DNA of 64,000 nt, from positions 62,001-126,000 of the IMG/VR virus record IMGVR_UViG_3300017991_000056. One strand, 5' to 3'. The translations under genes and the position numbers were made by a program. The notes beneath the pieces are model-generated. The model was not told where the DNA came from and ran no database searches. It worked only from the letters and a program-made list of their open reading frames with translations. Source of the stretch: a virus. Positions within the stretch are counted from its first letter, which is position 1; every line of letters begins with the position of its first letter. Positions 3,281 to 50,600 of the stretch are shown here, one piece after another.

Positions 3281-3287
3281 GTGAGAG

Positions 3288-4561: not shown

Positions 4562-4579
4562 TTGACCCGTGGCGCAATG

Positions 4580-4662: not shown

Positions 4663-4669
4663 CAGGACC

Positions 4670-5080: not shown

Positions 5081-5090
5081 GGAGGACGAC

Positions 5091-5372: not shown

Positions 5373-5380
5373 TGACCCAT

Positions 5381-5437
5381 GGCGCCCGGGAGGTTCCCGG
5401 GCGCCTGCCATCCGGCCCCGGCGGGTTCCGGGGCCGG
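5381..5437 (+). other. Tandem perfect GC hairpins in intergenic DNA
   Basis: Two back-to-back inverted repeats: GGCGCCCGGGA (5381-5391) / TCCCGGGCGCC (5395-5405), an 11-bp perfect stem with a 3-nt loop, and CCGGCCCCGG (5412-5421) / CCGGGGCCGG (5428-5437), a 10-bp perfect stem with a 6-nt loop. There is no downstream U-tract, so they are not canonical rho-independent terminators. They could be a bidirectional or attenuating terminator, a transcript-stability element or a protein-binding site. Confidence 0.6.
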
Positions 5438-5468
5438 GCAATATGAGACCATATGGAGGAGTGAGACA

Positions 5469-8058: not shown

Positions 8059-8071
8059 TCGTTTTATATCC
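8059..8071 (+). promoter_or_regulatory. Putative promoter motif TCGTTTTATATCC
   Basis: This AT-rich 13-mer lies directly after the terminator and upstream of the next gene. The same 13 bases recur at 47896-47908, also in an intergenic gap ahead of a gene. Both copies are followed by TTGTG within about ten bases. In such GC-rich DNA an exact recurrence after a terminator suggests a phage promoter. No -35 element is obvious. Confidence 0.5.
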
Positions 8072-12835: not shown

Positions 12836-12876
12836 TCATAATTCTTTGATACTTGAGCCATGTTTGAGGCGACAGC

Positions 12877-30071: not shown

Positions 30072-30077
30072 TATGGC

Positions 30078-32205: not shown

Positions 32206-32229
32206 CCCGGACAAGGGCGTCCGGTCGCG

Positions 32230-32235
32230 TATAAT
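32230..32235 (+). promoter_or_regulatory. Putative -10 element in GCGTATAAT motif
   Basis: TATAAT in the context GGTCGCGTATAATGG, 20 bases before the helicase start, at the switch from structural to replication genes. One of a set of GCGTATA(A/G)T-type sites that also includes 35587, 40538, 42716, 49613 and 50595. No clear -35. A very short 5' leader is implied. Confidence 0.55.
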
Positions 32236-34050: not shown

Positions 34051-35634
34051 ATGGCGGGATTCAACGACACGACAGACCTGGAGAGGTCCTACCTTTCCTC
34101 GGTGACGGCCAGCGTCGTCATGGCGCGGCTCTACGTCCGCAGAGCCACGGAGGGCCTGTTCTCCAGTCCGGAGCGCAAGTTCATCTACTCCAGGGCCAGG
34201 GAGGCCATGACCGCCTCCAAGGCGAGGCTCACCAGGAAGCTCTTCGAATACGAGCTGGAGCGCCTGGTCGACAAGAAGGAGCATCCGCACTACCTGGCCG
34301 AGTGGGAGCTGGTCGCGGCGAATAAGTCGACCGACAGCCCGGACGCCATCATCAAGCTGCTGGACGAGGCGAGGATCGGCCGTCTCATCATGGACGAGGC
34401 GGAGAGGGTGGTCGAGACTCTTGAGGCCGGCAGGATAGTCGACGCCGCGGCGCTCTGGAAGAGGGCGGCCGTCAGCATGTCCGTCGAGCGCGACGCGAGT
34501 CCGGTGGTGGAGATCACCGACTACGAGGACAGGAAGAAGACCATTCGGGACAAGCAGGCCCACCCCGAGAAGTACCTCGGGATCAAGACGGGCTTTCCGA
34601 GGTTCGACGGGATGACTGGCGGCCTCTTCCCGAAGGAGCTGACGCTGGTCGCGGGCCTGACTGGAAGCGGCAAGTCGACGTTCGTCAGGGCGATCCAGAG
34701 GGGCATCATCCTCAACAACGAGGACAAGAACGTCCTGCATATTGCCAACGAGGAGAGCCTGGAGCAGGTCCAGCACAAGTTCGACGCGTCCCTGACCAAT
34801 ATCCCCTACAACGACTTCAAGCGGGCCACCATCACCGATGCCGGCATCCAGGAGTGGACCGACTTCATGGATGTGGACATGCGGAAGCCCGGTATCGGGC
34901 GCATCTTCGTCCGGGAGGTTCCGGCCTTCACTGACGTGACGCTGGTGGAGGAGGCCATCCGCGAGTTGGAGGCCAAGGGGATCAAGATTCACGTCGTCGT
35001 GATTGACCATCTTCCTCATGTGAAGCCGATACAGCAGGCGTGGGGGGAGAACGACGAGAAGGCGAAGGCGGCGGCGGACTGCAAGGAGATAGCCAGGTGG
35101 TGCGACTGCGCGGTGGTGGTGCCGACGCAGGCCGCGACGGAGGTGGACGCGAAGCAGGAGAAGGGCAAGAGGGCTGGCAACTTGGACGTTTACGGGTCCA
35201 AGGCCCAGATACATGTCTCGAACACATTCATCATCATCACGATTAAGGGCAAGGACGAGACGCAGGACGACCGGGAGGAGTGGGAGCAGGACGTCTTCTG
35301 GATGGCGGATGTCAAGAAGAACCGCGACGGGCCGAAGTTCTGGTTCAGGGTGCGCCACCAGGTCCTGGTCGGACGGGTGATCGAGGAGATCGACGCCCAG
35401 GCGGACGCCGCGGATGCCGCGACGCAGCCCGATCCTCCCGATCCTCAGCAGGCGTCTCCGGCCAGGAAGGCTCCGCCGACGTCGGCGCCTCAAGATCCTC
35501 CGGCCCGGGAAGCTCCCAAGGGGGTCCTGGAGAAGTTGAGGGAGAGGAAAAAGGCGAATGGTTCCGGAGAATCGGATGGTGCGGCGTATAATGCGGAAAG
35601 CCAGTGGGCAATAAACCATGGCAGCAGGAGGTAG
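34051..35634 (+). CDS. DnaB-like replicative helicase
   Basis: 527 aa, ATG 34051. The core near residues 175-430 contains L-G-I-K-T-G-F-P-R-F-D, G-L-T-G-S-G-K-S-T (Walker A), H-V-V-V-I-D-H-L-P (Walker B-like) and V-V-V-P-T-Q-A-A, typical of DnaB/RecA-fold helicases. The N-terminal 170 residues are helical, as in primase-binding domains. The C-terminal 80 are Pro/Ala/Asp-rich and disordered. It is followed by a primase gene two genes on. The -10-like hexamer at 35587 lies in its 3' end. Confidence 0.8.
   Translation: MAGFNDTTDLERSYLSSVTASVVMARLYVRRATEGLFSSPERKFIYSRAREAMTASKARLTRKLFEYELERLVDKKEHPHYLAEWELVAANKSTDSPDAIIKLLDEARIGRLIMDEAERVVETLEAGRIVDAAALWKRAAVSMSVERDASPVVEITDYEDRKKTIRDKQAHPEKYLGIKTGFPRFDGMTGGLFPKELTLVAGLTGSGKSTFVRAIQRGIILNNEDKNVLHIANEESLEQVQHKFDASLTNIPYNDFKRATITDAGIQEWTDFMDVDMRKPGIGRIFVREVPAFTDVTLVEEAIRELEAKGIKIHVVVIDHLPHVKPIQQAWGENDEKAKAAADCKEIARWCDCAVVVPTQAATEVDAKQEKGKRAGNLDVYGSKAQIHVSNTFIIITIKGKDETQDDREEWEQDVFWMADVKKNRDGPKFWFRVRHQVLVGRVIEEIDAQADAADAATQPDPPDPQQASPARKAPPTSAPQDPPAREAPKGVLEKLRERKKANGSGESDGAAYNAESQWAINHGSRR
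35587..35592 (+). promoter_or_regulatory. Putative -10 element in GCGTATAAT motif
   Basis: TATAAT in GTGCGGCGTATAATGCGG, within the 3' end of the helicase gene and about 47 bases before the next start. Member of the repeated GCGTATA(A/G)T set. Confidence 0.5.
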
Positions 35635-35638
35635 CGAC

Positions 35639-36625: not shown

Positions 36626-36629
36626 GGAC

Positions 36630-37712: not shown

Positions 37713-37798
37713 CGGTGGTTGTAGATTGCATCATAGGCATTTTTTTATAAGCACAAGCAAGGCAAGCCGGGCAATCGGCATCGTGTGGAGGGTTTCTT

Positions 37799-38554
37799 AT
37801 GTCTGCGTCTGTCTGTCCAGACCGCATCGAGACCATCGAGATGGCACCCACCTTCAGGCGTTCCGGGAGTCCTTCGGCCGGGGCTCTGGTCGGGATGCCG
37901 GCTGAGCGGTCTCCGGTGATTGAGCGTATTCCGGTTACCCAGAAGTATCTTGCCGCTGTCATCAGCACCGGCTTCGAGGTTGACCATCCTGGTTGGGCTC
38001 GGGCGAGGCCGTATTTCGAGGAGAGCCTCCGCGACAGCGTGGCGGCGCTTGTTCATACCTTCGCTTCCAAGTATGCGACCTCTTGCGACGATGAGATTGA
38101 AGACTTGGAGCAGGAGTGCTTCCGGCGCATATTCATGAAGCTCCACCTCTACAAGCCCTTGAAGGGGGCGTTCACCACTTGGACCTCCCGCGTCTGTCAT
38201 AGCGTGTTGAATGGGAAGTATCGGAAGAGCAAGAGGTGGAAGGGGCGAGTCGTGTTGTCCGAGCCGGCTATCATCGAGAGGGTTGTTGATGCGAGCGAGG
38301 AAGGGGACCGATGCGACAGGTTCGACATGCGTGAGGCGCTGAGGGAGCTCTTCGGTCTCCATCCGGAGTTTCGGGGCTTCTTGACGGCTCTGTTCGACGG
38401 CGATCCCGAGGAGGACGACTACGAGCCGCCAGGGAAGATTAGTGTGATGGGGGCGTGCAGGATTTCCGGCGCGCCGTACGAGAGGGCGTACCCGTTCTAC
38501 CTGAAGGTGGTGCGACCGTTTTTCAGGGAGCGTTTTGCTGGAGATGAGAGATGA
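37799..38554 (+). CDS. Sigma-70 family RNA polymerase sigma factor (ECF-like)
   Basis: 251 aa, ATG 37799 after GGAGGG. Residues about 73-148 follow sigma region 2: a helix with S-V-A-A-L-V-H-T-F-A-S-K-Y, then D-D-E-I-E-D-L-E-Q-E-C-F-R-R-I-F, then the DNA-melting helix G-A-F-T-T-W-T-S-R-V-C-H-S-V-L-N. The second half has a possible region 4 (A-C-R-I-S-G-A-P-Y-E-R-A) that is degenerate. The 86-bp gap upstream is AT-rich with a T-run and TATAAG (37745-37750), a possible promoter. It may drive the GCGTATA(A/G)T sites in the replication half. Confidence 0.75.
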   Translation: MSASVCPDRIETIEMAPTFRRSGSPSAGALVGMPAERSPVIERIPVTQKYLAAVISTGFEVDHPGWARARPYFEESLRDSVAALVHTFASKYATSCDDEIEDLEQECFRRIFMKLHLYKPLKGAFTTWTSRVCHSVLNGKYRKSKRWKGRVVLSEPAIIERVVDASEEGDRCDRFDMREALRELFGLHPEFRGFLTALFDGDPEEDDYEPPGKISVMGACRISGAPYERAYPFYLKVVRPFFRERFAGDER

Positions 38555-38982
38555 CAGCTGCCGATGTGATGATGGAGAAGAGGAAGGCGATAGGGGAGCT
38601 TTTGCCGAGTTCGTGTTTCGGCCACTACCTGGAAACCTCCAAGGCATGTTCGAACTGCCAGATCGCCAAGCACTGCGTCAAGACGACGGAAAGGGTCAGG
38701 AGCGGCAGCCCGCCGCCGGCCCCGGGGCATCCCGAGCCGAAGACGGTTCCGGCGCCCGACGCCAAGGAGTACCTGCTGACGACCCTCAGGGGCAAGTTTG
38801 ACATGTCGGCCTCCAGGGAGGGCGACGTCCAGACTTGGAAGTTCCACAAGGATGGCAAGCCGGCCTTTTGGGTGATGGAGAAGGGTGGCAGGCTGGGCCT
38901 TCAGACGCGCAAGGGCAGGGAGGTGTTGGAGCTGCCGTCCTCGGTCGTCGAGGTCGAGGCGGCCTTGGAGAGGCTCCTGTGA
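38551..38982 (+). CDS. Small protein with C-x10-C-x2-C-x5-C zinc module
   Basis: 143 aa, overlapping the sigma gene stop. Near residues 22-41 it has C-F-G-H-Y-L-E-T-S-K-A-C-S-N-C-Q-I-A-K-H-C, a four-cysteine module with the same spacing and C-F-G start as the C-terminus of the SSB gene at 43436. The C-terminal half is a small alpha/beta domain. Position between a sigma factor and a helicase suggests a transcription or DNA-metabolism accessory, but function is unknown. Confidence 0.6.
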   Translation: MTAADVMMEKRKAIGELLPSSCFGHYLETSKACSNCQIAKHCVKTTERVRSGSPPPAPGHPEPKTVPAPDAKEYLLTTLRGKFDMSASREGDVQTWKFHKDGKPAFWVMEKGGRLGLQTRKGREVLELPSSVVEVEAALERLL

Positions 38983-39890
38983 GGACGACGGAGTACCCCT
39001 GGTACCTTCCGCCCTTCCCTGAGTTCAATGAGGCCCAGGCAGCGGCCGTTCCGTTCCTGGACGAGGACGTGAACATGGTCGTGGCCTTTCCCACCGCGAC
39101 GGGCAAGTCGGTGCTGGCCGAGTGCGCCTTTGCCTATCACCTGTCAGTGGACGAGAAGGCCAGGGTGGCCTATGTCTGTCCATACAGGAGCCTGGGCGCC
39201 CGGATGTATGCCGAGTGGGTCTCCAACGGGGCCTTCGTCGGCCACGGGGTGATGCTGAGCTCGGGGGACACGGTGCCGACGGCGCGGGAGTGGGAGAGGT
39301 GCAGGATGGCGGTCCTGACGGTCGAGTCGTTCGACTCCAAGGTCAGGTCGGCGTCGTACTCCGAGTGGGTGGAGAGCCTCGCATGCGTGGTTTTCGACGA
39401 GGCCCACCTTCTGGGCGAGAAGGTGAGAGGGGCGGCGCTTGAGGCTTCCCTCATGAGGTTCACCGCGGCCAACCAGTCGGCGCGCGTCGTCATGCTCTCC
39501 GCGACCATGGCCAACGCGCTGGAGGTGGCCAGGTGGGTCAAGAGTCTCAACGGGAAGCCGACGAAGTGCGTTCGGAGCTCGTGGAGGCCGACGGGCATCG
39601 ACATGAGGTTCCACGAGGCGGAGCGGGGGTCCGAGGCCGAGAGGGCCGTTGAGGTGGCCAGGGCCATGCGGGGAAAGACGATCGTGTTCGTCCACTCGAA
39701 GAGGGTGGGCAGGGAGGTGGCTGCGGGTCTAGTCGAGAGCGGGGTGCGCTGTGCCTTCCACAACGCGTCGGTGCCGAAGGGCCGGAGGGCCGCGATGGAG
39801 AAGGCTTTCGATGATCCCGCGTCCGGTCTCGACGTTCTGGTGTCGACGTCGACCCTGGGTGCGGGGGTGAATATAGGCAGCAGCGGTTGA
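38979..39890 (+). CDS. Ski2/Hel308-like SF2 helicase, N-terminal part (motifs I-V)
   Basis: 303 aa from GTG 38979, overlapping the previous gene. Motif I is A-F-P-T-A-T-G-K-S, motif II V-F-D-E-A-H, motif III M-L-S-A-T, motif IV I-V-F-V-H-S-K and motif V L-V-S-T-S-T-L-G-A-G-V-N, after which the frame ends I-G-S-S-G-stop. Motif VI and the C-terminal domains are encoded at 40666-41673. The break lies exactly between motifs V and VI, with a uracil-DNA glycosylase gene in between. Either the two polypeptides assemble, or RNA-level splicing joins them. Confidence 0.85.
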   Translation: MRTTEYPWYLPPFPEFNEAQAAAVPFLDEDVNMVVAFPTATGKSVLAECAFAYHLSVDEKARVAYVCPYRSLGARMYAEWVSNGAFVGHGVMLSSGDTVPTAREWERCRMAVLTVESFDSKVRSASYSEWVESLACVVFDEAHLLGEKVRGAALEASLMRFTAANQSARVVMLSATMANALEVARWVKSLNGKPTKCVRSSWRPTGIDMRFHEAERGSEAERAVEVARAMRGKTIVFVHSKRVGREVAAGLVESGVRCAFHNASVPKGRRAAMEKAFDDPASGLDVLVSTSTLGAGVNIGSSG

Positions 39891-39924
39891 TTTGTAATTG
39901 TCTACTGAACGGGGAGTGCATCGG

Positions 39925-40509
39925 ATGAGAAGCGAGCAGGAGAGGCTGGACATCCTCAGATCGGCATGCCTGGAATGTCGGATGTGCAAGTCCATCGGTG
40001 GGGTTGTGATCGACGGTTGCGTGTCCAACGTGTTTTCCAGCGGGGGCGTCCGTTGCGCTCTGGCGGTCGTCGGGCAGAACCCAGGCCGTGACGAGGTGGC
40101 CGCGGGCATGCCGTTTGTCGGGGCCTCGGGGAGGTTCTTCGACGAGGCTCTGGCCGAGTGGGTTGGTCTGTCGAGGGATCAGGTCTACGCGACCAACGTG
40201 GTGCATTGCTACACGCCGGGCAACCGGGCTCCGACGTTGGAGGAGCTGGACAACTGCCGCCCCTTCCTGGAGGAGGAGATCGAGATCGTGCGGCCGAAAG
40301 TGGTGCTCGCCCTTGGGGCTTTCGCCTTCAAGATGCTGACCGGGATGAGCGGGATCATGAAGCACTGCGGGGACGTGGTCCATTCGATCCGGTACGGGGT
40401 CCAGGTGGTCGGCTGCCTGCATCCCAGCCCGTACAACACGAGCGACCCGGAGAAGCGGGAGATGTTCGCGCAGGCGATGAGGAGGCTCAGGGAGGTGCTC
40501 GATGCGTGA
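39925..40509 (+). CDS. Family 4-type uracil-DNA glycosylase
   Basis: 194 aa from ATG 39925 after GGGGAG; a TTG at 39898 is a weaker alternative. Iron-sulfur ligands look intact: C-L-E-C near residue 15 and later V-V-H-C...N-C-R with 15 residues between the cysteines, as in family 4 UDGs. Motif A is V-G-Q-N-P-G-R-D-E-V, followed by G-M-P-F-V-G-A-S-G, and the H-P-S-P-Y-N motif is present. It excises uracil from DNA. It interrupts the helicase gene between its motif V and motif VI coding parts. Its GC resembles its neighbours, so it may be an old insertion. Confidence 0.85.
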   Translation: MRSEQERLDILRSACLECRMCKSIGGVVIDGCVSNVFSSGGVRCALAVVGQNPGRDEVAAGMPFVGASGRFFDEALAEWVGLSRDQVYATNVVHCYTPGNRAPTLEELDNCRPFLEEEIEIVRPKVVLALGAFAFKMLTGMSGIMKHCGDVVHSIRYGVQVVGCLHPSPYNTSDPEKREMFAQAMRRLREVLDA

Positions 40510-40665
40510 CTGGTGGCTCAGAGGTTTCCGGGCGGCGTATAGTTTGCAGATGAGAGCGTCTGGTGCTGGTTCGTAGCTTGGCTTGCCAGGTTTGTGGAGC
40601 GGGAGGCATGAAGGCGGGGCCTTGTGGCAACATGACTAGCGACGAGTACGATAGGTGGTTCGGGG
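40510..40665 (+). other. Intergenic region between glycosylase and helicase C-part
   Basis: No long ORF. It holds a GCGTATAGT promoter-like site (40538) and a possible 21-codon ORF from ATG 40608 (ribosome site GGGAGG) ending at 40673, which overlaps the helicase start. The frame of the helicase C-part is open back to 40636 and reads A-T-S-T-I-G-G-S-G just before ATG 40666, echoing the I-G-S-S-G end of the N-part. No group I or II intron core was found here. Confidence 0.5.
40538..40543 (+). promoter_or_regulatory. Putative -10 element in GCGTATAGT motif
   Basis: TATAGT in TTTCCGGGCGGCGTATAGTTTGC, in the gap after the glycosylase gene. It could allow separate transcription of the helicase C-part. 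Member of the GCGTATA(A/G)T set. Confidence 0.5.
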
Positions 40666-41673
40666 ATGGCTGACAACGTGGTCATAGTGGGAGTGAGACG
40701 GGGGCCGTCCCTGGTTCCGGTCGGCGAGCTGCGTCAGATGGCGGGGCGTGCCGGGCGCGTCCAGGGAGGCGCCGACGCCCGCATCGAGGTGGTGGTGTCC
40801 CCCGAGGACGCCGACTACGCCGGAGAGGCGCTGTCTCCAGGAGGGGACCCGGTCGTGGGGTCGGCCATGGGGGACGAGGACGTCATGGCTTTCCACTTGC
40901 TCCCCGAGATATGCGCTGGAAGGGTCCGTGGGGGTCGCACGGCGGCCTTGTGGCACTCGCGCGGCTTCCATGCGGCGCTGGGGTTGCCGTCGCCGGTCGA
41001 CGGCGCAATGGGGCTTCTGAGGGACTGTGGGGCGATCGAGGAGTCGACGGGGAGGGTCGTGGCTACGTCGCTTGGAAGAGTGGCGTCGCTGATGTACTTC
41101 CATCCGGTGGACGTGGCGGCGTGGGCGTCCAACTTCGACGAGGTGTTCAGGCTCGGGGCCGAGGACGACGACCTGGCTGCGGCGTGGGCTCTCGGGAGCG
41201 TCCCGTCTTCGAGGAGGTCGGGCGATCTGTCCGGGAGGTTCTGGGTGGCCGGGAAGTTCAAGGACGAGCTTCCGTCAGGTCTGGAGCCAGTGGCCGGGTC
41301 GATCGTGAACTGCGTCCTGTGGTGGTCTCTGGTAGGGGGGCCGTCCGTCGGCCCGCTGAGGGGGCTGTCCCTCCAGCTCCGCGAAGACAGGCAGAGGGTG
41401 TTCGGCGCGCTGAGGAGGCTTGACAGGGAGGTGGGCCGGTGGGGCAGGTCGGACTACTTCGACCGTCTGGAGTTCCAGGTGGAGAAGTCGATCCCGGTTG
41501 AGCTCGTGCCCCTATGCCGGCTGCCCGGCGTCGGGAAGGGCATGGCCATCAGGTTGTACGAGATGGGGGTCGAGGGTCCGGAGGCGGTTCTGGCGGAGGC
41601 CGGCGTGGAGGGTCCGAGGAGCGACGAGGAGACGGGCATGATTGCCAGGGGGCTGGCTGATGGTCTCTGCTGA
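40666..41673 (+). CDS. Ski2/Hel308-like helicase, C-terminal part (motif VI, winged helix, HhH)
   Basis: 335 aa, ATG 40666. It begins A-D-N-V-V-I-V-G and quickly reaches motif VI Q-M-A-G-R-A-G-R, so it continues the helicase ended at 39890. The following 200 residues resemble a winged helix and ratchet domain, and the end has a helix-hairpin-helix: C-R-L-P-G-V-G-K-G-M-A-I-R-L. It cannot hydrolyse ATP alone because motifs I-V are missing. Overlaps the next gene by 14 bases. Confidence 0.85.
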   Translation: MADNVVIVGVRRGPSLVPVGELRQMAGRAGRVQGGADARIEVVVSPEDADYAGEALSPGGDPVVGSAMGDEDVMAFHLLPEICAGRVRGGRTAALWHSRGFHAALGLPSPVDGAMGLLRDCGAIEESTGRVVATSLGRVASLMYFHPVDVAAWASNFDEVFRLGAEDDDLAAAWALGSVPSSRRSGDLSGRFWVAGKFKDELPSGLEPVAGSIVNCVLWWSLVGGPSVGPLRGLSLQLREDRQRVFGALRRLDREVGRWGRSDYFDRLEFQVEKSIPVELVPLCRLPGVGKGMAIRLYEMGVEGPEAVLAEAGVEGPRSDEETGMIARGLADGLC

Positions 41674-42115
41674 CAGGGCGGTCAAGGCTTTGAGCCGATG
41701 CTTCCGGAGCGGGAGCACGAACCGGATCATGGTTGAGAGGCTGCTTCGGGTGAGGGGCGGCGTGGACGTCTCTAGCCTGGAGGGGTTCGTTGGCGGCGAC
41801 AACTCGGCGTGGGTCAGGGCGGACGCGTCGAGGGTGGTGGCGTCCAAGGGGCGTTCGGAAGTGGTGGTGGATGCGGCCAGGGAGGAGTTGGAGCCCAGCG
41901 TGCTTCGGGAGATGTTGGGGGCGCTGGGCGCCCGTGGAGAGGGGCCTCTGGAGGAGCTGGCGTTCTTGCTGTGCGACGAGGAGAGGCCGGGCGTGAAGCA
42001 GATGGCGATAAGGATGTTCAAGGAGGCTGGAAGGAGCGACTGCATGATGCCGCTCCTGCTTTCCAGTTCCAAGGATGAGGTGGCGATGGCCAAGCGGTGC
42101 ATCAATGGACGATGA
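41660..42115 (+). CDS. HEAT-repeat-like hypothetical protein
   Basis: 151 aa from ATG 41660 inside the helicase 3' end. All-helical, with repeated patterns such as L-E-E-L-A-F-L-L-C-D-E and V-K-Q-M-A-I-R-M-F-K-E-A that resemble HEAT repeats. Overlaps the next gene by eleven bases. Perhaps an accessory to the recombination proteins nearby. Function unknown. Confidence 0.5.
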   Translation: MVSADRAVKALSRCFRSGSTNRIMVERLLRVRGGVDVSSLEGFVGGDNSAWVRADASRVVASKGRSEVVVDAAREELEPSVLREMLGALGARGEGPLEELAFLLCDEERPGVKQMAIRMFKEAGRSDCMMPLLLSSSKDEVAMAKRCINGR

Positions 42116-42779
42116 GATCAAGAGGACGCCCATACCCGAGAGCAGCGTCGAGCGGTTCATGGTGATAGTTTTCTCGATGGTGGAGGATTTCGGCATCGAC
42201 GAGCTGCCGGAGGTCTACAGGCAGGTTGAGATGCTGGGGGAGGCGGTCGACCGCCATATCTGGGAGCAGCGCCACAAGGTCTCGCCCCAGAGGCGCGTCC
42301 ACAATGACAGGAAGCGGTTCATCTCGATCTTCAAGGCGCGGTACCTCCAGCTCATGGACCTGGAGTACAGGCGCAAGATAACGCCGGTCGACTCCAAGTT
42401 GATGAACCAGGCCAACAGGACGCTTCGGGACGAGGGGCACGACGCGGAGTCGTACCTCCGCTGGCTGTTCGAGGAGTACCTGGTTGACAATCCGAAGTTC
42501 TGCCCTCCGTCGCTCAAGCAGGTGTGCAGCAATTTCTTCTTGCACAAATTCATCTTCGAGAGCCGTCAGATGGGGTCCGTGCAGGCCGAGCAGGACGCAC
42601 AGGAGAAGGAGGCGCACGACGTTGTTTCCAGGGGGCGCGTGCTGCTTCGGTCGGGAATAGGAAAAGAGGACAGCGAAAAGGTCCGGAAGGCTCTCAAGGA
42701 CTACTCCGAAGGACGTATAATATTGCATGAGCTGAGAAGGCTCGTGGAGGCAGTCGGAGAGACGAACTTGGCAGATTGA
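42105..42779 (+). CDS. Hypothetical helical protein in recombination cluster
   Basis: 224 aa from ATG 42105; the frame extends upstream into the previous gene without a ribosome site. Helical and charged, with Y-R-Q-V-E-M-L-G-E-A-V-D-R and a conserved-looking core S-L-K-Q-V-C-S-N-F-F-L-H-K-F-I. Resembles no family I can name. A promoter-like TATAAT sits near its 3' end. Confidence 0.5.
   Translation: MDDEIKRTPIPESSVERFMVIVFSMVEDFGIDELPEVYRQVEMLGEAVDRHIWEQRHKVSPQRRVHNDRKRFISIFKARYLQLMDLEYRRKITPVDSKLMNQANRTLRDEGHDAESYLRWLFEEYLVDNPKFCPPSLKQVCSNFFLHKFIFESRQMGSVQAEQDAQEKEAHDVVSRGRVLLRSGIGKEDSEKVRKALKDYSEGRIILHELRRLVEAVGETNLAD
42716..42721 (+). promoter_or_regulatory. Putative -10 element in ACGTATAAT motif
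   Basis: TATAAT in CTCCGAAGGACGTATAATATTGC, 75 bases before the start at 42796. A slightly divergent member of the GCGTATA(A/G)T set. Confidence 0.45.
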
Positions 42780-42795
42780 GGTAGGAGGATCGGAA

Positions 42796-43410
42796 ATGGG
42801 CGTGGTGGAGAACATCATAGCGACGTGCGAGAACCTTGGTTCGATAGAGCTGAACGGCATCAGGCTGGATACGGCGGACCCTCGTCTCCTGGATGTTACC
42901 GAGATGGACCTGGACCGGCACGTGGCGATGCAGCCGGCGGCGATAGCCTACTTCGGGACGCTCCGGAAGGACGCCGCGAGGGCCGTGGCCAACTGCAAGA
43001 AGGCCTATGACCGCTGGAGGAGGCCGAGGTACGTCGTCGCGAGGGCGGTGGTCGACTCCAGGTCGTCCGCCAAGTCGACGGTGAAGGTCGAGGAGGTCAA
43101 GGCCCAGCTGGAGATCGACAACGAGGCGGAGGTCGTGAAGTGGGAGGAGCGCCTGGACAGGCTCCAGCGTGAGATGGACACCCTCGACAACTGGTATGAG
43201 GCTTGGAGGCAGAAGTCGTTCACGATCCGCGAGCACGCTCAGATTGAGGAGGACGGCCTGTACAATTCGAATCCCAGCATGGGGAGTGGATACGACAAGG
43301 GTGCCGGCAGGTCCAGGGTCTCGACGCCGCAGGCGCCGGTCTCCAGGGCCGAGCGGGTGCGTGAGATGATAGGCAAGAGGCGGCAGGGTGCCGCCGAAAC
43401 GGGCCAGTAA
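42796..43410 (+). CDS. Putative recombination accessory protein (UvsY-like position)
   Basis: 204 aa, ATG 42796 after AGGAGG. Helical, with K-K-A-Y-D-R-W-R-R-P-R-Y and later W-E-E-R-L-D-R-L-Q-R-E-M-D-T-L-D-N-W-Y-E-A-W-R-Q-K-S-F-T-I-R, a pattern I associate with phage proteins coded beside SSB and RecA. That neighbourhood suggests a mediator loading recombinase onto SSB-coated DNA; the assignment rests on context and pattern, not on proven homology. Confidence 0.5.
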   Translation: MGVVENIIATCENLGSIELNGIRLDTADPRLLDVTEMDLDRHVAMQPAAIAYFGTLRKDAARAVANCKKAYDRWRRPRYVVARAVVDSRSSAKSTVKVEEVKAQLEIDNEAEVVKWEERLDRLQREMDTLDNWYEAWRQKSFTIREHAQIEEDGLYNSNPSMGSGYDKGAGRSRVSTPQAPVSRAERVREMIGKRRQGAAETGQ

Positions 43411-43435
43411 AGGCAGAAAGGCAAAGGAGGCGGTG

Positions 43436-44638
43436 ATGAGCGTTCTGGACAAAATCAGGAAGTTGAATGAGCGGCGGGCCCGGGAGGGCCGGGGTGGCGG
43501 TCGGGTCAACGGGATTTTTCACAACTGGAAGGATGGCCCGAATGTCATCAGGCTCGTCAGCGGCGGGTTCCTGGAGGTGAAGACTCACTTCGTGGCGCCG
43601 TCGACGAGCAGGGGCGACCGGGGGCTCTGCCAGCCGGATGCCTTCAAGGGCGACCGGGACCATCGCATCTCCAAGGTGGTGAACTGTCTGAACTGGAACC
43701 TTGATTCCGAAGAGGCGGCGGAGGTCCAGACGTGCCCCGTCTGCGAGCTCCATGCCATCGCGAGGATGGCTCTCCAGGAGAGTCCGACGCCCGAGGAGAA
43801 GAAGTTCTTCGAGGAGCTTCTGTCGGCGACGCGGCCGCGCGACTCCTTGAAGTGGAACGTGATCGACCGTGACGACCCGTATGTCATCCAGCTTGGCGAG
43901 GATGGCTCCGAGAGCAAGATTCTCGGGTTTAAGATTGCCACCATCGGGATGGAGGCGTGGAACGACATCCAGGGCATCTTCGAGCAGTGCCAGTTTGACA
44001 TCTCGGACGACGACGAGGGCATCGACATTTGCGTGACGCGCGGCAAGAACGCGATGCGCACGGTTTACTCCGCGCAGGCCGTGCTGGAAGGCAAGGGCCT
44101 GAAGGTGACTCCGCTCACTGACGAGGAGAGGGCGCTTCCGAGGCAGGACCTGAAGGCGAGGTGCGGCAAGATGACCAAGCGTGAGGACATCATGGACGCG
44201 CTCCATGGCGACCTTCGCGAGTTGCTGGACCTGAATGCGGATGACGCGCCGGTGGCGCCTCCGGCTCGCCAGGCTCCCGCGGCTGCGCCGGCGGCCCAGA
44301 GACAGGCTCCGGCCGCGCCCCGAAGGCAGGCTCCGGCGGCCGCGCCGGTGGCGGATGACACCAACGACGCGTTTGCCGAGCCTCCGGCTGCTGTCCAGGC
44401 TGCTGCTCCGGCTGCTGCCCCGGCTGCTGCCCCGGCTGCGACCCCGGCTGCTGCTCCGGCTGCGGCCCAGGCTGCGGCGGCAGTGGCAGCCGCTGCTGTC
44501 GAGACTGCTCCGGCGGCTGACTTTTCGGAAATCGACCCGAGCACCTGGCAGTGCTTCGGGACGGCTGACGAGAACGAGACTGAGTGCAAGGGATGTCCCT
44601 TCCTGAAGGCCTGCGTTGCCAAGCGCGACCAGGGTTGA
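43436..44638 (+). CDS. gp32-like single-stranded DNA-binding protein with added C-terminal zinc module
   Basis: 400 aa from ATG 43436 after AAAGGAGG; upstream in-frame ATG 43388 overlaps the previous gene and is less likely. The first 250 residues resemble T4 gp32-type SSB: V-I-R-L-V-S-G-G-F-L-E-V-K-T-H-F, then C-P-V-C-E-L-H. Then an Ala/Pro/Gln-rich linker of about 110 residues. The C-terminus is not the usual acidic tail but C-F-G-T-A-D-E-N-E-T-E-C-K-G-C-P-F-L-K-A-C, a zinc module also found at 38551. Likely coats ssDNA for the adjacent RecA and polymerase. Confidence 0.7.
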   Translation: MSVLDKIRKLNERRAREGRGGGRVNGIFHNWKDGPNVIRLVSGGFLEVKTHFVAPSTSRGDRGLCQPDAFKGDRDHRISKVVNCLNWNLDSEEAAEVQTCPVCELHAIARMALQESPTPEEKKFFEELLSATRPRDSLKWNVIDRDDPYVIQLGEDGSESKILGFKIATIGMEAWNDIQGIFEQCQFDISDDDEGIDICVTRGKNAMRTVYSAQAVLEGKGLKVTPLTDEERALPRQDLKARCGKMTKREDIMDALHGDLRELLDLNADDAPVAPPARQAPAAAPAAQRQAPAAPRRQAPAAAPVADDTNDAFAEPPAAVQAAAPAAAPAAAPAATPAAAPAAAQAAAAVAAAAVETAPAADFSEIDPSTWQCFGTADENETECKGCPFLKACVAKRDQG

Positions 44639-44654
44639 CGACGAGAACCATGAC

Positions 44655-44681
44655 GGATGGGAGCCTTTTGGCTCCCGTCCG
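44655..44681 (+). terminator. Hairpin between SSB and RecA genes
   Basis: CGGATGGGAGCC pairs with GGCTCCCGTCCG around a TTTT loop, one G.U pair. The downstream sequence is only moderately T-rich (CTTCTTTAG), so it may terminate weakly, or attenuate or protect the transcript. Confidence 0.55.
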
Positions 44682-44702
44682 CTTCTTTAGGGAGGCGAGG
44701 AC

Positions 44703-45827
44703 ATGGCGAAGGCCGACAGGAAGGCGCCGAAGACGCGGGAGCAGCAGATAACGGCGATTTGCAAGGCGATCAACAGTGGTGATTTCGGAGGTGAGAACAA
44801 GGACGCGGTGATGTGGCTCGGGTCGAGGGACAGGATCGTCCTTCCCCGGTTCTCGTCGGGATGTATGGACCTGGACGACGCCATGGGCGGAGGCTATCCG
44901 GAAGGGCGCTTCATCGAGGTGTTCGGTCCGGAGAGCAGCGGCAAGACGACGATTCTCCTTCATGCGATCGCGGAGTACCAGAAGGCGCATCCGGAGCGGG
45001 ATGTGGCGATGATAGACACCGAGTTCGCCTTCGACGAGGAGTACGCCGAGAACATTGGTGTCAACACGAAATGGCTGATCGTGAGCCAGCCGGACGACGG
45101 CGAGCAGGCCCTCAACGTGGCCCAGCAGATGATGCAGCTCGGCGTTGGCTTCATCGGTGTTGACTCCGTGGCGGCGTTGACGACGAGGGCGGAGATCGAG
45201 GGGGCCATGGGGGACGTCCACGTCGCCGAGCAGGCACGGCTCATGAGCCAGTCGCTCCGCAAGCTGGCCGCGGAAGTCAAGCGGCGTCGGGCGACGATGC
45301 TCTGGACGAACCAGATGAGGGACAAGATCGGGGCGTCGTGGGGAGAGCAGACCACCCAGCCTGGCGGTCGGGCTCTCCGGCACTGGGCGTCCATCCGGAT
45401 CAGCATGGCGAGGATCTCCTCCGTGAAGGAGGGGCCGAAGGAGAACAGGGTCGTGGTCTGCACGAAGCATCGGGCGGAGGTCAAGAAGAACAAGTGTGCC
45501 GCACCCTTCCGGAAGGCCGACTTCTATATCACGTTCGGCCACGGCATAGACGTGGTGGCGGCCATCCTGGACGCGGCCATCTCCAAGGGGGTCGTGGACA
45601 AGAGGGGGTCCTGGTTCTCGTTCAAGGGGGAGCAGCTGGGGCAGGGTCGAGTCCAGGTCTTGGAGATTCTCAGGACCGACAAGGAATACTGCCGGAAGAT
45701 CGAGGACGCCACGCACCTGGAGCATCCGCCGGCGCCGGAGCCGGAGGAGGGTCCTGACGGCGTGGAGCGGGTGCCGGTCACGAGAGGGGCGATAGACGTG
45801 GAAGCGACGGTGGTAAATGATGTCTGA
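44703..45827 (+). CDS. recA: RecA recombinase
   Basis: 374 aa, ATG 44703 after GGGAGGCGAGG. Walker A is G-P-E-S-S-G-K-T-T near residue 75, Walker B-like F-I-G-V-D-S-V-A-A-L, and L2/central features W-T-N-Q-M-R-D and Q-P-G-G-R-A-L-R-H follow, all diagnostic of bacterial-type RecA rather than UvsX. The C-terminal 60 residues are acidic/proline-rich. It forms a cluster with the SSB and the exonuclease gene, which it overlaps. Confidence 0.9.
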   Translation: MAKADRKAPKTREQQITAICKAINSGDFGGENKDAVMWLGSRDRIVLPRFSSGCMDLDDAMGGGYPEGRFIEVFGPESSGKTTILLHAIAEYQKAHPERDVAMIDTEFAFDEEYAENIGVNTKWLIVSQPDDGEQALNVAQQMMQLGVGFIGVDSVAALTTRAEIEGAMGDVHVAEQARLMSQSLRKLAAEVKRRRATMLWTNQMRDKIGASWGEQTTQPGGRALRHWASIRISMARISSVKEGPKENRVVVCTKHRAEVKKNKCAAPFRKADFYITFGHGIDVVAAILDAAISKGVVDKRGSWFSFKGEQLGQGRVQVLEILRTDKEYCRKIEDATHLEHPPAPEPEEGPDGVERVPVTRGAIDVEATVVNDV

Positions 45828-46734
45828 GGGACCAAAGCTGCTGCTGATCGACGGGAACAACATGGCCCATCGCGTCTTCTGGGCGAACCAGAAGAAGAAC
45901 CTCGCTTACAATGGCAGCTCGACGGGGCTCGTCTACGGCTTCGTCAGGCAGCTCGTGAGTCTCCACAAGAAGTGGCCGCACCATTTCCGGATTGTCGCCT
46001 GGGACACCGAGGGGGGCAGCGCGAGGCGCGTGGCCGAGTCGAAGGTGGGTGTCGAGGCCGGCGTCGTGCCGGAATACTACAAGCAGTCCAGGAGGGAGAA
46101 GGAGAAGCCTCCCGAGATCGAGGACATGTACGAGCAGATGGACGTTCTTCGGGACGGCCTGGCCGTGACCAACACCCTCCAGGTCGCGATGCCCGAGGTG
46201 GAGGCGGACGATATTCTCTACACTTACGCAAGATGGGCGGCCCGCTGGGCCGGGTCGGCGGTGATCGTGTCGTCTGACCAGGACTTCTACCAGGCCATCG
46301 GGGATGGCGTGATCGTCTACGACGCCATGCGGAAGGAGACGTGGAGCGAGGAGCGGTTCGAGATGGAGTTCGGCTTCGCGCCGCGGCTTTGGGTCGAGGC
46401 CGGGGCGATCATGGGCGAGGTGGGGCCGTCGAAGGACAACATCTACGGAGTCGACGGGTGGGGGCCCAAGACCACCTACAAGTACGTCAAGGAGCATGGG
46501 GGCATCTCGGGCATACGGGCTGCGATCCTGGCGAAGAGCAAGGTCGGCAAGAAGGAGCAGGTCTTTCTCGACAGCGGGGAGAGGCTCAGGCTGGCCGAAT
46601 CGCTCAAGAGGATGGACGTGGTGCCCGTGCCGAGGGCGAGGATGACCAGGAAAGTGGACCCGAAGAAGGTTGAGGCCTTCTTCCTGAAGTTTGGTTTCGC
46701 CAGCCTGCTCAAGGAGGCCTGGAGGCTCTCATGA
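45817..46734 (+). CDS. 5'-3' exonuclease (FEN/T4 RNase H-like)
   Basis: 305 aa, ATG 45817 or 45820. Contains L-L-L-I-D-G-N-N near the start, V-A-W-D-T-E-G, E-V-E-A-D-D-I-L (the acidic metal cluster), V-S-S-D-Q-D-F-Y-Q and a helix-hairpin-helix segment S-K-D-N-I-Y-G-V-D-G-W-G-P-K-T, all expected in Pol I-type/FEN exonucleases. Removes primers or resects ends, fitting a phage that lacks a Pol I in this window. Confidence 0.88.
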   Translation: MMSEGPKLLLIDGNNMAHRVFWANQKKNLAYNGSSTGLVYGFVRQLVSLHKKWPHHFRIVAWDTEGGSARRVAESKVGVEAGVVPEYYKQSRREKEKPPEIEDMYEQMDVLRDGLAVTNTLQVAMPEVEADDILYTYARWAARWAGSAVIVSSDQDFYQAIGDGVIVYDAMRKETWSEERFEMEFGFAPRLWVEAGAIMGEVGPSKDNIYGVDGWGPKTTYKYVKEHGGISGIRAAILAKSKVGKKEQVFLDSGERLRLAESLKRMDVVPVPRARMTRKVDPKKVEAFFLKFGFASLLKEAWRLS

Positions 46735-47333
46735 CGGGGGCCGTCACGGCTTACAGGAGGTTGAGGACGCGTGCCACCGTCGTCAGGGACGAGGGTGGCT
46801 ACGAGCTCGGGGCGGGCCATGCCAACCCGGTGCTCTTCGAGGAGTTCCTCGGGGAGATGCTTGAGGCGGGTTTCCCGGCGGTGGTGTGGGAGCCGTTCTC
46901 GGTCCCGGACGGGACGCCGGCGTCCTTCGAGCTGTGCGACGACATCGGCGTGGAGCTGGTGTCCCACAGCGTCAGGTCGGGGGTCCCGAGGGTGGTGGAG
47001 GCAGACTCCACGGTGATGGGGCCCGGAAGGGAGATAGGGGGCATGTTCGTCCATCCGCCGTATTTCGGGTGCAACCCGTTCTCGCAGGTGGAGGGCGAGC
47101 TCTCCATGGCGGCGGACGAGGCGTCTTACCGGGCCGCTCTGTCGAGGACGTTCTCCCTGGGGCTGGCGGCGATGGAGAGGGGAGGCCTGGCGTGCGTCGT
47201 GGGACGCCGCTACAGGAGGGTGGTCGAGGTGAAGCTGGACGAGTGGATGGCTGAGGACCTGGAGGACGTTGGGTTCTCTCTCTGCGCGGTCATGATGAGC
47301 GATCCGGACGTGGCGATATTGGCGAGGACATGA
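46731..47333 (+). CDS. DNA methyltransferase-like protein
   Basis: 200 aa, overlapping the exonuclease stop. The key motif is F-V-H-P-P-Y-F-G near residue 104, the [DN/H]-P-P-Y catalytic loop of N4-cytosine/N6-adenine methyltransferases, followed by M-E-R-G-G-L-A-C-V-V-G-R-R-Y-R resembling a later strand. The SAM-binding F-x-G-x-G motif is not obvious, so it may be a reduced or partner-dependent enzyme. Target unknown. Probably protects phage DNA from restriction. Confidence 0.65.
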   Translation: MTGAVTAYRRLRTRATVVRDEGGYELGAGHANPVLFEEFLGEMLEAGFPAVVWEPFSVPDGTPASFELCDDIGVELVSHSVRSGVPRVVEADSTVMGPGREIGGMFVHPPYFGCNPFSQVEGELSMAADEASYRAALSRTFSLGLAAMERGGLACVVGRRYRRVVEVKLDEWMAEDLEDVGFSLCAVMMSDPDVAILART

Positions 47334-47334
47334 C

Positions 47335-47892
47335 ATGAGCTACAGGATAGGTTTGGTTGGCGCGGGGGGAACCGGGAAGTCGACGCTGGCGAGGATGCTG
47401 GCGGAAAAGCTCGGGCTGCCGCTGCTGGCGTCGAAGTGCGTTACCCAGGAGATACTGGACCGGGACGGCTACGATTATGGCTCGGGCATCCAGATAGAGA
47501 GGTTCCTGGCGAACAGCCACAGGCAGATCGAGCTGGTCAAGAGGACCTTTCAGGCCTACGAGGGTATCGAGTTCTTCGTGACGGACAGGACGGCGATAGA
47601 CCTGGCGGCCTACGCCCTCTGCGAGCTGAACGACTCCGCCCCCGAGACCCTGAAGAAGGTGTTCGAGTTCTGCAGGGACAGCGTTGGGTCCTACACGCAT
47701 CTCTTCCTCTGTCCGCGGGGGAGCCTTCCGATGGAGAGCAACAGGAGGAGGACGCTGAACCCCTGGTACCAGTTCCTGATCCACACCATCGAGCGGGGCA
47801 TCGCCGAGGACTGGAAGGTTGGCCTGACCGAGCTGAAGAAGGAAAGCGTCGAGGAGAGGGTGGCGGAGGTCAGGTCCTGGTTGAAGGCGTAA
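47335..47892 (+). CDS. P-loop kinase/ATPase
   Basis: 185 aa, two bases after the previous stop. Walker A G-A-G-G-T-G-K-S-T at residues 9-17, and a central V-T-D-R-T-A-I-D-L-A-A-Y, as in small nucleotide or NadR-like kinases (AAA_28 type). Possibly a nucleotide or nicotinamide-riboside kinase; substrate cannot be read from the sequence. Confidence 0.65.
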   Translation: MSYRIGLVGAGGTGKSTLARMLAEKLGLPLLASKCVTQEILDRDGYDYGSGIQIERFLANSHRQIELVKRTFQAYEGIEFFVTDRTAIDLAAYALCELNDSAPETLKKVFEFCRDSVGSYTHLFLCPRGSLPMESNRRRTLNPWYQFLIHTIERGIAEDWKVGLTELKKESVEERVAEVRSWLKA

Positions 47893-47895
47893 TAT

Positions 47896-47908
47896 TCGTT
47901 TTATATCC
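47896..47908 (+). promoter_or_regulatory. Putative promoter motif TCGTTTTATATCC (second copy)
   Basis: Exact repeat of 8059-8071 in the gap upstream of the FtsZ-like gene. It suggests that this GTPase is expressed from the same promoter class as a transcription unit in the structural region. Confidence 0.5.
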
Positions 47909-48077
47909 TGACAGTTGTGTAGAGCGGTGCCACGCCGAGATGGAGGAAGCCATGAGCGGTAAGGGAGAGGTGCTTCACGGTTCGCGGTTCGTCCGTGACG
48001 GACTTGCGGGGGCCGAGGGGGGAGGACATGCCGAGAGGCGCAGGGTTGTCATATCGCGAGACAGCGAGGAGAGCGCA

Positions 48078-49259
48078 ATGAGCGACGACATCGTCAATGA
48101 TGATTTCCTGGTTGACGTTCCGGACATCCCGATGCCCGAGGAGGGCGTCGCGGAGGGCGAGGTGGTCAAGGACGAGTTCGAGGGCGCGTTCGACTACGCC
48201 TTCGTTGGGGCCGGGCAGGCGGGCAGCCGCATCGTCGAGAGCTTCTGGAAGCTCGGCTATCGGCGCGTGTGCTGCGTTAACACGAATAGCCAGGACCTGG
48301 CCGGGATCGACATTCCGGAGTCGAACAAGCTCGTCATGGATATTGGCTCTGGCGGCGCGGGCAAGGACCCGGCAAAGGGCGCCAAGGCAATTCAGAGCTA
48401 CTACGAGGACGTCTACGACCTGATGCGGCGCAGTTTCGGACGCAAGTTCGACCGTGTCTTCGTCTCCGTCGGAGCCGGAGGCGGCACGGGAAGCGGCTGC
48501 GCGAAGGCCCTCGTCGACATCGCTCACGACATCGCCAGGTCGTTTAAGGTCGAGGAGGAGGGTGGCAAGCCGGCGGTCGGCGCCATTGCGGCGCTGCCCA
48601 AGACGACCGAGGGGGCCAAGGTGAACTTCAACGCCCACGGCGTTCTGGACGATCTGTTCTCGATGGTTGGGAGCGACGCGGGGAAGCTGGCCGGCAGGAG
48701 CCTGAGTCCCCTGATCGTTATTGACAACGACAGGATTAACCGGCTCTATCCCAATCTGCCAGTGGCGAAGTTCTGGGATGTGGCGAACCGGAACGTCTCC
48801 AGCTTGTTCCATTTGTTCAACACCATCGCGATCAGGGATTCCGACTTCACGACTTTTGACAGGGCGGACCTCAAGGACATCCTTGAGTCCGGCACGGTGA
48901 CGTTCGGGGCATGCCCGATGAAGAAGTGGGGCGCCGCGGACGACATCAGCTACGCCATCCGGGACAACCTCCGGAGGAACGTCCTGGTCGGCGGCTTCGA
49001 CTTGAAGCAGGCCAAGGCGGCCGGCTGCGTCTTCATCGCCCACGGCGACGTGTTGGAGAAGGTTCCCCAGGCGTATCTGGAGCACGGCTTCGAGATGCTG
49101 TCCAGGATCATGGGCGCCGGTTCTGTCGTGCATCGCGGCATCTACCGGGGCGGCAAGCCAGGGCTCGTGGTCTACACGATCCTGGGAGAGCTCGGGCGTC
49201 CCGACGAGCGCATGGAGGAGATCGCGCGCGTCGGCGGGGCCACGTTGAGGAAGGAATAG
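48078..49259 (+). CDS. FtsZ/tubulin-like GTPase
   Basis: 393 aa from ATG 48078 with GAGGAGA five bases upstream. In-frame ATGs at 47940 and 47952 (GGAGG-linked) would add 42-46 residues. Residues about 38-70 begin the GTPase fold (Y-A-F-V-G-A-G-Q-A-G-S-R-I-V), and the T4 loop is G-A-G-G-G-T-G-S-G. The T7 region reads D-F-T-T-F-D-R-A-D-L-K-D-I-L, with the catalytic D-x-x-D of FtsZ-like proteins. Phage tubulins (PhuZ, TubZ) centre or move phage DNA or replication compartments. This one keeps an FtsZ-like signature. No phage-nucleus shell gene is recognised here. Confidence 0.85.
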   Translation: MSDDIVNDDFLVDVPDIPMPEEGVAEGEVVKDEFEGAFDYAFVGAGQAGSRIVESFWKLGYRRVCCVNTNSQDLAGIDIPESNKLVMDIGSGGAGKDPAKGAKAIQSYYEDVYDLMRRSFGRKFDRVFVSVGAGGGTGSGCAKALVDIAHDIARSFKVEEEGGKPAVGAIAALPKTTEGAKVNFNAHGVLDDLFSMVGSDAGKLAGRSLSPLIVIDNDRINRLYPNLPVAKFWDVANRNVSSLFHLFNTIAIRDSDFTTFDRADLKDILESGTVTFGACPMKKWGAADDISYAIRDNLRRNVLVGGFDLKQAKAAGCVFIAHGDVLEKVPQAYLEHGFEMLSRIMGAGSVVHRGIYRGGKPGLVVYTILGELGRPDERMEEIARVGGATLRKE

Positions 49260-49263
49260 AGAC

Positions 49264-49527
49264 ATGGCTTATCGAGCGAACGTGACCGACAAGCAGCAGA
49301 GCGACATCGAGAACGCGGCGAACGACAGCGCCGACAGGCTTCTCTGGTTCGACGGGAAGCAGGAGCAGGCGGCTGCCACGAGGTTCATCCGGGCCCTCGA
49401 CCTGTCGGCCCAGGGCAGCGGGGTCTCGGCGACCATGAGCGCGCAGAGGCAGTTCGGCAGCTCCGGGCACGCCGTCGGCAGCCATAATGACAAGCCCGCG
49501 ACGTTCGCGAGGCCGGGCAAGGTCTAA
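49264..49527 (+). CDS. Small hypothetical protein after the FtsZ-like gene
   Basis: 87 aa, ATG 49264, four bases after the GTPase stop. Polar, Gln/Ala/Ser-rich, with a helical first half and a disordered glycine/serine-rich tail. The close spacing suggests a partner or regulator of the FtsZ-like GTPase, but no motif supports that. Confidence 0.5.
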   Translation: MAYRANVTDKQQSDIENAANDSADRLLWFDGKQEQAAATRFIRALDLSAQGSGVSATMSAQRQFGSSGHAVGSHNDKPATFARPGKV

Positions 49528-49563
49528 CCCCGGGCGGGGTCCTCCCCTCCCCGCCCACCTCCC

Positions 49564-49597
49564 AGAGGGCCGCGTGAAAGCGCGGCCCTCTCTTTTT
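49564..49597 (+). terminator. Rho-independent terminator
   Basis: AGAGGGCCGCG (49564-49574) pairs with CGCGGCCCTCT (49581-49591), 11 perfect pairs with a TGAAAG loop, followed by CTTTTT. It closes the unit that contains the FtsZ-like gene. Confidence 0.92.
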
Positions 49598-49612
49598 GCC
49601 CTCCTCGCGGCG

Positions 49613-49618
49613 TATAGT
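49613..49618 (+). promoter_or_regulatory. Putative -10 element in GCGTATAGT motif
   Basis: TATAGT in CGCGGCGTATAGTGTCGC, 16 bases after a strong terminator and 20 bases before the next start codon. The terminator-to-start position makes it the best supported member of the GCGTATA(A/G)T set. A very short 5' leader is implied. Confidence 0.65.
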
Positions 49619-49637
49619 GTCGCAAAGGAGGACGACC

Positions 49638-50558
49638 ATGACCAGGTTGCTGTTCTACACCGACCTTCAGCTGAGCGGCAAGACGCCGAGGCACAGGGTC
49701 GACGACTACCCGTCCGCGCTGGTGGAGAAGGTGGCTGAGATATACGAGCGCGCGACCGCCGAGAGATGCGAGTTCGTGGTCTTCGGAGGCGACTTCTTCA
49801 ACAACCACAAGATATTCAGCTACGATGTCATCAACAGGGTGATGGAGCCGATCTGCTCGTCGGACCTGACGACGTACGTGGTGCTCGGGCAGCACGACGT
49901 CCACGGCTACAACCCGAAGACCTACGAGACCTCGACCATGGCCTTCATGGCGAGGCACTGCGAGAAGCTCGAGGTGATGTGGGGGCCGACGGAGGTCGGC
50001 GAGGTTGAGCTGTGGCCGTGCCATGTCTGGGAGAAGCTGGAGGATGCGAAGGGGAAGATGATGCCGCCTGGCAGGGTCAACGTGCTCGTGGCTCATCAGT
50101 CGATCACCAACAAGAAGAAGTTCTTCGACGTGGAGTCGACGGCCGACTTCGGGGTTGGGTGCCCCTACGACCTGGTCCTGTCCGGGCACATGCACGACGG
50201 CTACGACACGCATGTGGTCGACGGGACGACCTTTTGCAACCCGGGGGCCGTCTCCAGGGGCGCCATGGATGAGATCGACCGTGTTCCGATGGTCGCGGTG
50301 ATAGAGGTCGGGGCGGGGAGGCCGCCGGCCGTGAGGCTGCTCCCCATCGAGTGCGTGAAGCCAGGATCGGACGTTTTCGGGCAGGATGTGGCGGAGATCG
50401 TCAGGGACATGAGCGAGTTCGACGCCAACGCCTTCGTGCGGGGCATGGACGAGCTGGAGGCCGAGTCGGTCGACGTTTACGACCTGGTTCAGAAGGCGGG
50501 AAAGGAAGAGGGCATCCCGAAGCCCGTCCTGGCCTATATCGACTCGAAGAGGAAATAA
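49638..50558 (+). CDS. Metallophosphoesterase, SbcD/Mre11-like
   Basis: 306 aa, ATG 49638 after AAAGGAGG. The calcineurin-type motifs appear in order: Y-T-D-L-Q-L, V-V-F-G-G-D-F-F, V-V-L-G-Q-H-D, V-L-V-A-H-Q and L-S-G-H-M-H-D-G. The C-terminal 80 residues are helical. T4 gp47-like nucleases of this type work with an SbcC/gp46 ATPase, which is not seen in this window. Confidence 0.8.
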   Translation: MTRLLFYTDLQLSGKTPRHRVDDYPSALVEKVAEIYERATAERCEFVVFGGDFFNNHKIFSYDVINRVMEPICSSDLTTYVVLGQHDVHGYNPKTYETSTMAFMARHCEKLEVMWGPTEVGEVELWPCHVWEKLEDAKGKMMPPGRVNVLVAHQSITNKKKFFDVESTADFGVGCPYDLVLSGHMHDGYDTHVVDGTTFCNPGAVSRGAMDEIDRVPMVAVIEVGAGRPPAVRLLPIECVKPGSDVFGQDVAEIVRDMSEFDANAFVRGMDELEAESVDVYDLVQKAGKEEGIPKPVLAYIDSKRK

Positions 50559-50594
50559 TCGCTCGGATTTTTCAGAATTGTTGCTGGCGACGTG

Positions 50595-50600
50595 TATAAT
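50595..50600 (+). promoter_or_regulatory. Putative -10 element in CGTGTATAAT motif
   Basis: TATAAT in GGCGACGTGTATAATAGGG, 56 bases before ATG 50656. Divergent member of the GCGTATA(A/G)T set; the TG before TATAAT is extended -10-like. Confidence 0.5.

Follow-up and report, generated by a model that had tools for sequence, protein, structure and literature searches.

The gene for a sigma factor next to the primase gene of a large phage, amid repeats of GCGTATA(A/G)T, poses the question of whether these repeats are promoters and which polymerase reads them. The window that we analyzed is a stretch of 64,000 nucleotides, positions 62001-126000 of a 133,403-bp virus record, G000 (G-numbers are handles for viral records). 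The phage has the gene content of a tailed phage, as it encodes terminase, portal and tail proteins, primase, DnaB helicase, UvsX and a DnaE-type polymerase, and all of its convincing genes lie on the + strand. A near-identity search of named phages with G000 gave no match; the closest terminases are those of an uncultured 485-kb phage (33%) and Tunturiibacter phage Tunturi_5 (29%). Relatives were retrieved with the DnaE polymerase, single-protein searches with the sigma factor and UvsX being too shallow. In these viral records the polymerase is 47-67% identical, GC content ranges from 36 to 64% and gene order is strongly conserved, and proteins are only about 50% identical. Together with G000 they form a clade of large, uncultured phages that had not been described. 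G001 and G002 are the same phage, as are G005 and G012, and these were not counted as independent; the eight lineages are G000, G001, G004, G005, G008, G010, G013 and G014. Two outgroup records, G003 and G011, lack the sigma factor; they are only distantly related and unlike the clade in many other ways.

The genome also carries a tmRNA (17319-17713 of L009, genome 57319-57713; tag AKNILSFPGRPRLAIAA; ARAGORN, and Rfam RF00023 at 107 bits) followed by tRNA-Arg. Two adjoining genes of unknown function (11482-12888 of L009, genome 51482-52888) are 60-94% identical to their relatives, while nearly all else is at 30-65%. Stretches that match intein/Hint families occur in the DNA polymerase gene (window 52953-57992; shared phrog hits) and in gene 036 (L009 7203-9464; Hom_end_hint, E=1e-7). 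Long repetitive genes at 1-240, 490-6579 and 34622-39883 of G000 are similar to a collagen-like tail-fibre gene with CAGGG repeats (window 28659), and these long genes dominate the over-represented k-mers of G000.

A -10-like element before replication genes

The first-pass annotation had described GCGTATA(A/G)T sites in the replication half of the window and read them as a temporal class of promoters. The sites are real, and only their coordinates needed correction, having pointed at the TATA part, so that each 9-mer starts three bases earlier. Five exact copies lie in the window, all on the + strand, against 0.05 expected from shuffles, and two near forms with one mismatch each (42713 and 50592) lie on the same strand (Table 1). 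The scan of the whole genome that had been proposed as a check found six exact matches forward, none in reverse and none for the backwards control (133,403 bp). The core GTATA(A/G)T occurs 10 times forward and never in reverse in the whole record, where 200 order-2 Markov simulations of G000 averaged 0.47 copies and never exceeded 3, and 7 of the 10 copies are noncoding (0.8 expected, p=1.4e-6). TATAAT that lacks the preceding G is not enriched in G000 (two forward, three in reverse). As had been claimed, the site at 30064 shares bases with the stop codon of the preceding gene, the site at 49610 comes after a strong terminator, and the structural half of the window (1-30 kb) has none. Three copies of GTATA(A/G)T lie outside the window (genome coordinates), at 53211 (GCGTATAAT) and at 17173 and 56594 (both GTGTATAAT), and the one at 17173 precedes an HNH-endonuclease gene just upstream of the terminase region.

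Table 1. Promoter-like elements and features of the sigma locus in the window (window coordinates)
Feature	Sequence or form	Position	Strand	Context
Class B	TTTTATAT	8062..8069	+	
Class B	TTTGATA (CATAATTCTTTGATACTT)	12845..12851	+	
Class A	GCGTATAGT	30064..30072	+	before glycosyltransferase gene 30078-31748; same place before ortholog in G014
Class A	GCGTATAAT	32227..32235	+	before helicase gene 32255-34048
Class A	GCGTATAAT	35584..35592	+	before gene 35639-36625; operon runs on into primase and sigma
Weak class B-like	TTTTATA	37743..37749	+	upstream of sigma
Leader hairpin	GCCGGGCAATCGGC	37766..37779	+	20-33 nt upstream of sigma start
ECF-like sigma factor	region 2 at residues 81-145; helical C-terminal domain	37799..38554	+	
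Conserved Cys-motif protein	CFGHY..C..C..C	38551..38982	+	adjoins sigma
Class A	GCGTATAGT	40535..40543	+	before gene 40666-41673
Class A	ACGTATAAT	42713..42721	+	within end of upstream gene, before gene 42796-43410; orthologous in G001, G005, G008
Class B	TTTTATAT	47899..47906	+	before tubulin-family gene 47952-49259
Intrinsic terminator	28-nt hairpin and CTTTTT	49564..49597	+	just before 49610 element; read from sequence
Class A	GCGTATAGT	49610..49618	+	before SbcD-like phosphoesterase gene 49638-50558; also at ortholog in G013, G014
Class A	GTGTATAAT	50592..50600	+	before gene 50656-52074; orthologous in G001, G004

The element, which we call class A, is conserved across the clade in its strand, its surroundings and its place. 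Across the clade GTATAAT favors the sense strand, for example in G001 (34 forward, 5 reverse), G005 (26 and 4), G004 (16 and 4) and G008 (7 and 1), and it is not enriched in the outgroups G003 and G011; an unbiased k-mer count in G001 returned GGTATAAT 24 times forward and never in reverse. Noncoding enrichment holds in most genomes. The genome-wide excess is weak in G010 and G013 (nine in G013 against 7.1 expected), and the footprinted sites are still present there. The motif stands before the helicase gene in 8/8 lineages, at about -20 to -42, and before the ortholog of gene 35639 again in 8/8, including G013 and G014, two records retrieved only once the motif had been fixed. Since only 4-7% of genes, depending on the genome, have a class A motif within 70 bases, its presence in 6/6 lineages by chance is remote. 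Other shared places are before genes 42796 (four lineages), 50656 and 49638 (three each) and 30078 (two), and at the ortholog of gene 49638 the element comes directly after a terminator in both G000 and G014. Noncoding class A sites with orthologs stand before replication genes 17 times versus twice before virion-module genes, a label that is partly positional because several such genes lack annotation, and genes preceded by a gap are about equally frequent on the two sides (73 and 64, respectively). The proposed replication-side class is thus supported by sense-only, noncoding sites at orthologous places in eight lineages and by depletion at virion genes. GCGTATA(A/G)T is very probably a real, conserved start signal for replication genes. 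More broadly, judged by its sense-strand bias, orthologous placement and replication-gene bias, the element with consensus GnGTATA(A/G)T is a genuine promoter-like class marking replication and other non-virion genes.

What kind of promoter class A resembles depends on the bases around its core. TATAAT is the housekeeping -10, and class A carries it; class A also supplies the best-scoring bipartite sigma70 sites of G000, G004 and G005. A G at -13, which was part of the searched pattern, is found without exception at the 16 footprinted sites upstream of the two core genes, and a G at -15 in about two thirds of noncoding class A sites. The first-pass annotation had found no evident -35 element, and this is true of most relatives but incomplete for two phages, as class A sites of G000 have a weak T at -36 (8/10 sites, p=2.5e-4 over positions) and those of G005 a TTGCAA/TTTCAC-like box at -36 to -31. 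By the standard of sigma70, a -35 at class A sites is significant only in G005 (17-18 bp), marginal in G000 and G004 and absent in G001, G008 and G010. The extended -10 form TGnTATAAT is absent in G000, and the class A logos contain no AAC-type -35 box of the ECF kind. Nor is there a separate enriched TTGACA/TAnnnT class, as a source of candidate early promoters, in G000, or a clear excess of one in these genomes. A plain host promoter accounts for neither the invariant G at -13 nor the lack of a sigma70-type -35 in most relatives, and we know of no housekeeping sigma factor that reads position -13.

An ECF-like sigma factor and its leader

The protein encoded at 37799, annotated from the start as having a sigma-70 region 2, does match that domain (Pfam PF04542, E=1.4e-7), which places it in the sigma-70 family; the domain was matched in 7/7 homologs. 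Each of the five genomes searched has one region-2 protein above the cut-off, and none of the five encodes a recognizable RNAP beta subunit. The homolog lies next to primase in every record that covers the locus, and in most lineages it is followed by the Cys-motif protein. The best solved-structure relatives of its region 2 are the ECF sigmas SigW and SigE, with SigW the best match. In an AlphaFold model of moderate quality (pLDDT 63, pTM 0.39), region 2 resembles that of E. coli sigmaE, with no Foldseek match reaching E 0.001. ECF (group IV) sigmas consist of regions 2 and 4 only and lack regions 1.1 and 3. In the phage protein Pfam finds region 2 alone, and the C-terminal helices (residues 175-246) are well modelled. 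Compared with bacterial ECF sigmas, then, region 2 agrees best with SigW/SigE by sequence and with sigmaE in structure, whereas the phage protein has an N-terminal extension and no Pfam region 4, and the promoters here lack an AAC-type -35. The tryptophan dyad of housekeeping region 2.3 is not conserved in it. Searches of named phages by tblastn with the sigma factor and with its G001 homolog returned nothing, and hhalign gave no sign of homology to phiEco32 gp36 (probability 0.3%).

The leaders of the sigma genes share a palindrome, GCCGA-N3/4-TCGGC, which occurs once per genome in G001, G004, G005, G008 and G014 (as GTCGA..TCGAC in G005) and always just upstream of the sigma start; G000 has a shorter form. 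It is possibly an operator or an RNA hairpin that controls the sigma factor.

Two further promoter-like classes

An unbiased motif search of the gaps of G000 ranked first not class A but AATTC-TTT(T/G)ATAT, part of a newly noticed element, class B, with the consensus AATT(C/T)TTT(T/G)ATATT, which is found mainly at virion genes. Its core TTT(T/G)ATA occurs in G000 12 times forward, never in reverse, and 10 copies are noncoding; no -35 is evident. Class B stands before the orthologous genes 032, 038, 055 and 085 in several lineages, and before gene 014 in G000 and G012; in G000 and G014 it also follows gene 114. Sites with orthologs fall at six virion-module versus two replication genes. It is thus a -35-less box at virion genes, as are phage late promoters of the T4 or kayvirus type. 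Class B is not clear in G001 or G008, both of which carry the sigma factor; the forms used by these phages may have diverged, and only a small part of the virion module is present in G008. The class B site at 47899 is the one that follows gene 114 and recurs at that place in G014; the gene behind it encodes a tubulin/FtsZ-family GTPase (Pfam Tubulin E=4e-12, TubZ-like_C), whose ortholog was seen only in G004.

A third class of promoter-like elements, class C, is longer and very well conserved and lies near small genes of the relatives, as TTTGGATTTT-N11/12-GGTAATA(C/G)ATAGATGTAAG in G001 (L023-L032) and as TTCCTTATTCTGA-N-TTTCGGTAATGTATGGGTGTAAG in G005/G012. Its core in G005/G012, GGTAATGTAT, resembles the phiEco32 sigma promoter tAATGTAtA, and class C was attractive as a target because the phiEco32 sigma reads that sequence; we rejected it since it is not enriched in the sigma carriers G004, G008 and G010. 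GG(C/A)AATATGA of G000 was not accepted as class C, because one such match in a relative is a Shine-Dalgarno sequence plus ATG.

Assigning polymerases to promoter classes

With one sigma factor and at least two promoter classes in hand, the simplest assignment would pair class A with the host holoenzyme, for early and replication genes, and class B with the phage sigma, for virion genes. We tentatively favor this scheme, in which host RNA polymerase carrying the host's TATAAT-reading sigma would read class A early and the phage sigma would read class B late. Class A would then be a -10-type core from which the replication module and other non-virion genes are transcribed, among them the operon with the primase and sigma genes. 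The host polymerase may need help there, as most sites are without a -35. The ECF-like sigma made from that operon would redirect the host core enzyme to the -35-less class B, most of whose conserved sites are at virion-module genes. Class B also looks more like what phage sigmas usually read late than class A does, as it is not housekeeping-like (TTT(T/G)ATATT with no -35) and lies mostly at virion-module genes.

A strong competing reading, to which we give somewhat less weight, is that the phage sigma reads class A itself (as xGTATA(A/G)T with at most a slight -35), which would make class A a middle class to which the sigma's own operon belongs, and that some other phage factor reads class B. 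The invariance of G-13 and the missing -35 keep this reading a candidate. The class A heptamer is tight, and the element is found in every sigma-carrying lineage and is not enriched in the outgroups without the sigma factor, which are distant and different in many other respects. In G005 the -35 box, and in G000 the T at -36, stand 16 nt before nGTA, which is the spacing of ECF promoters such as those of SigW, the best match of the phage sigma. Against this, the class A -10 is exactly the housekeeping TATAAT, class B and the early promoters would be left without a reader, and the phage sigma, whose gene lies in an operon behind class A, would need its own promoter in order to be made. In a specific and rather unlikely form of this idea, an ECF-like sigma without the tryptophan dyad would read a full TATAAT with no -35 and another factor would run class B; if true, the phage would have a private variant of the host -10 for its replication genes.

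We consider it improbable that class A resembles T4 middle promoters, with host sigma at the -10 and a phage activator or co-activator, such as the Cys-motif protein, replacing the -35 contacts. A good TATAAT without a -35 in most lineages and a small conserved protein adjoining the sigma factor would suit such a mechanism, but neither G001 nor the pooled alignment has a conserved activator box upstream of class A. That the repeats are some other sense-strand element (a leader, processing or packaging signal) or chance is very hard to believe: the evidence on them is all of sequence, yet their counts far exceed shuffles and simulations, and they are -10-like, stand 20-120 nt upstream of starts, directly follow a terminator at 49610 and are conserved at orthologous genes.

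T4 late (gp55) and middle (MotA) promoters are -35-less phage promoters that separate replication from virion genes. The T4 late promoter, TATAAATA, differs in sequence from the classes described here. Late promoters of the Staphylococcus kayvirus vB_SauM-515A1 consist of a single long -10 box, TGTTATATTA, with no -35 at structural genes, and are attributed to a phage sigma (PMC7698491). Class B (TTTTATATT) is much like this box, likewise lacks a -35 and lies in a genome that encodes a phage sigma, whereas the early kayvirus promoters are strong bipartite sigma70 promoters and class A mostly lacks a -35. In phiEco32 and phage 7-11, the phage sigma (gp36 and gp47, respectively) drives middle and late promoters, which in phiEco32 are the single element tAATGTAtA without a -35, and in 7-11 a hairpin precedes the sigma gene, as it does here (PMC4331800, PMC8948821). 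The phiEco32 element is like class C of G005/G012 (GGTAATGTATGG) and unlike GCGTATA(A/G)T, and gp36 has no detectable profile similarity to the sigma factor described here.

Taken as a whole, the analysis provides a testable promoter map for a previously undescribed clade in which each genome has one conserved sigma factor. The map gives coordinates and conservation for two or three promoter classes, and with a GC content of 36-64% the clade lends itself to testing promoter choice by a minimal phage sigma. Orthologous footprinting can find promoter classes in metagenomic phages without RNA data.
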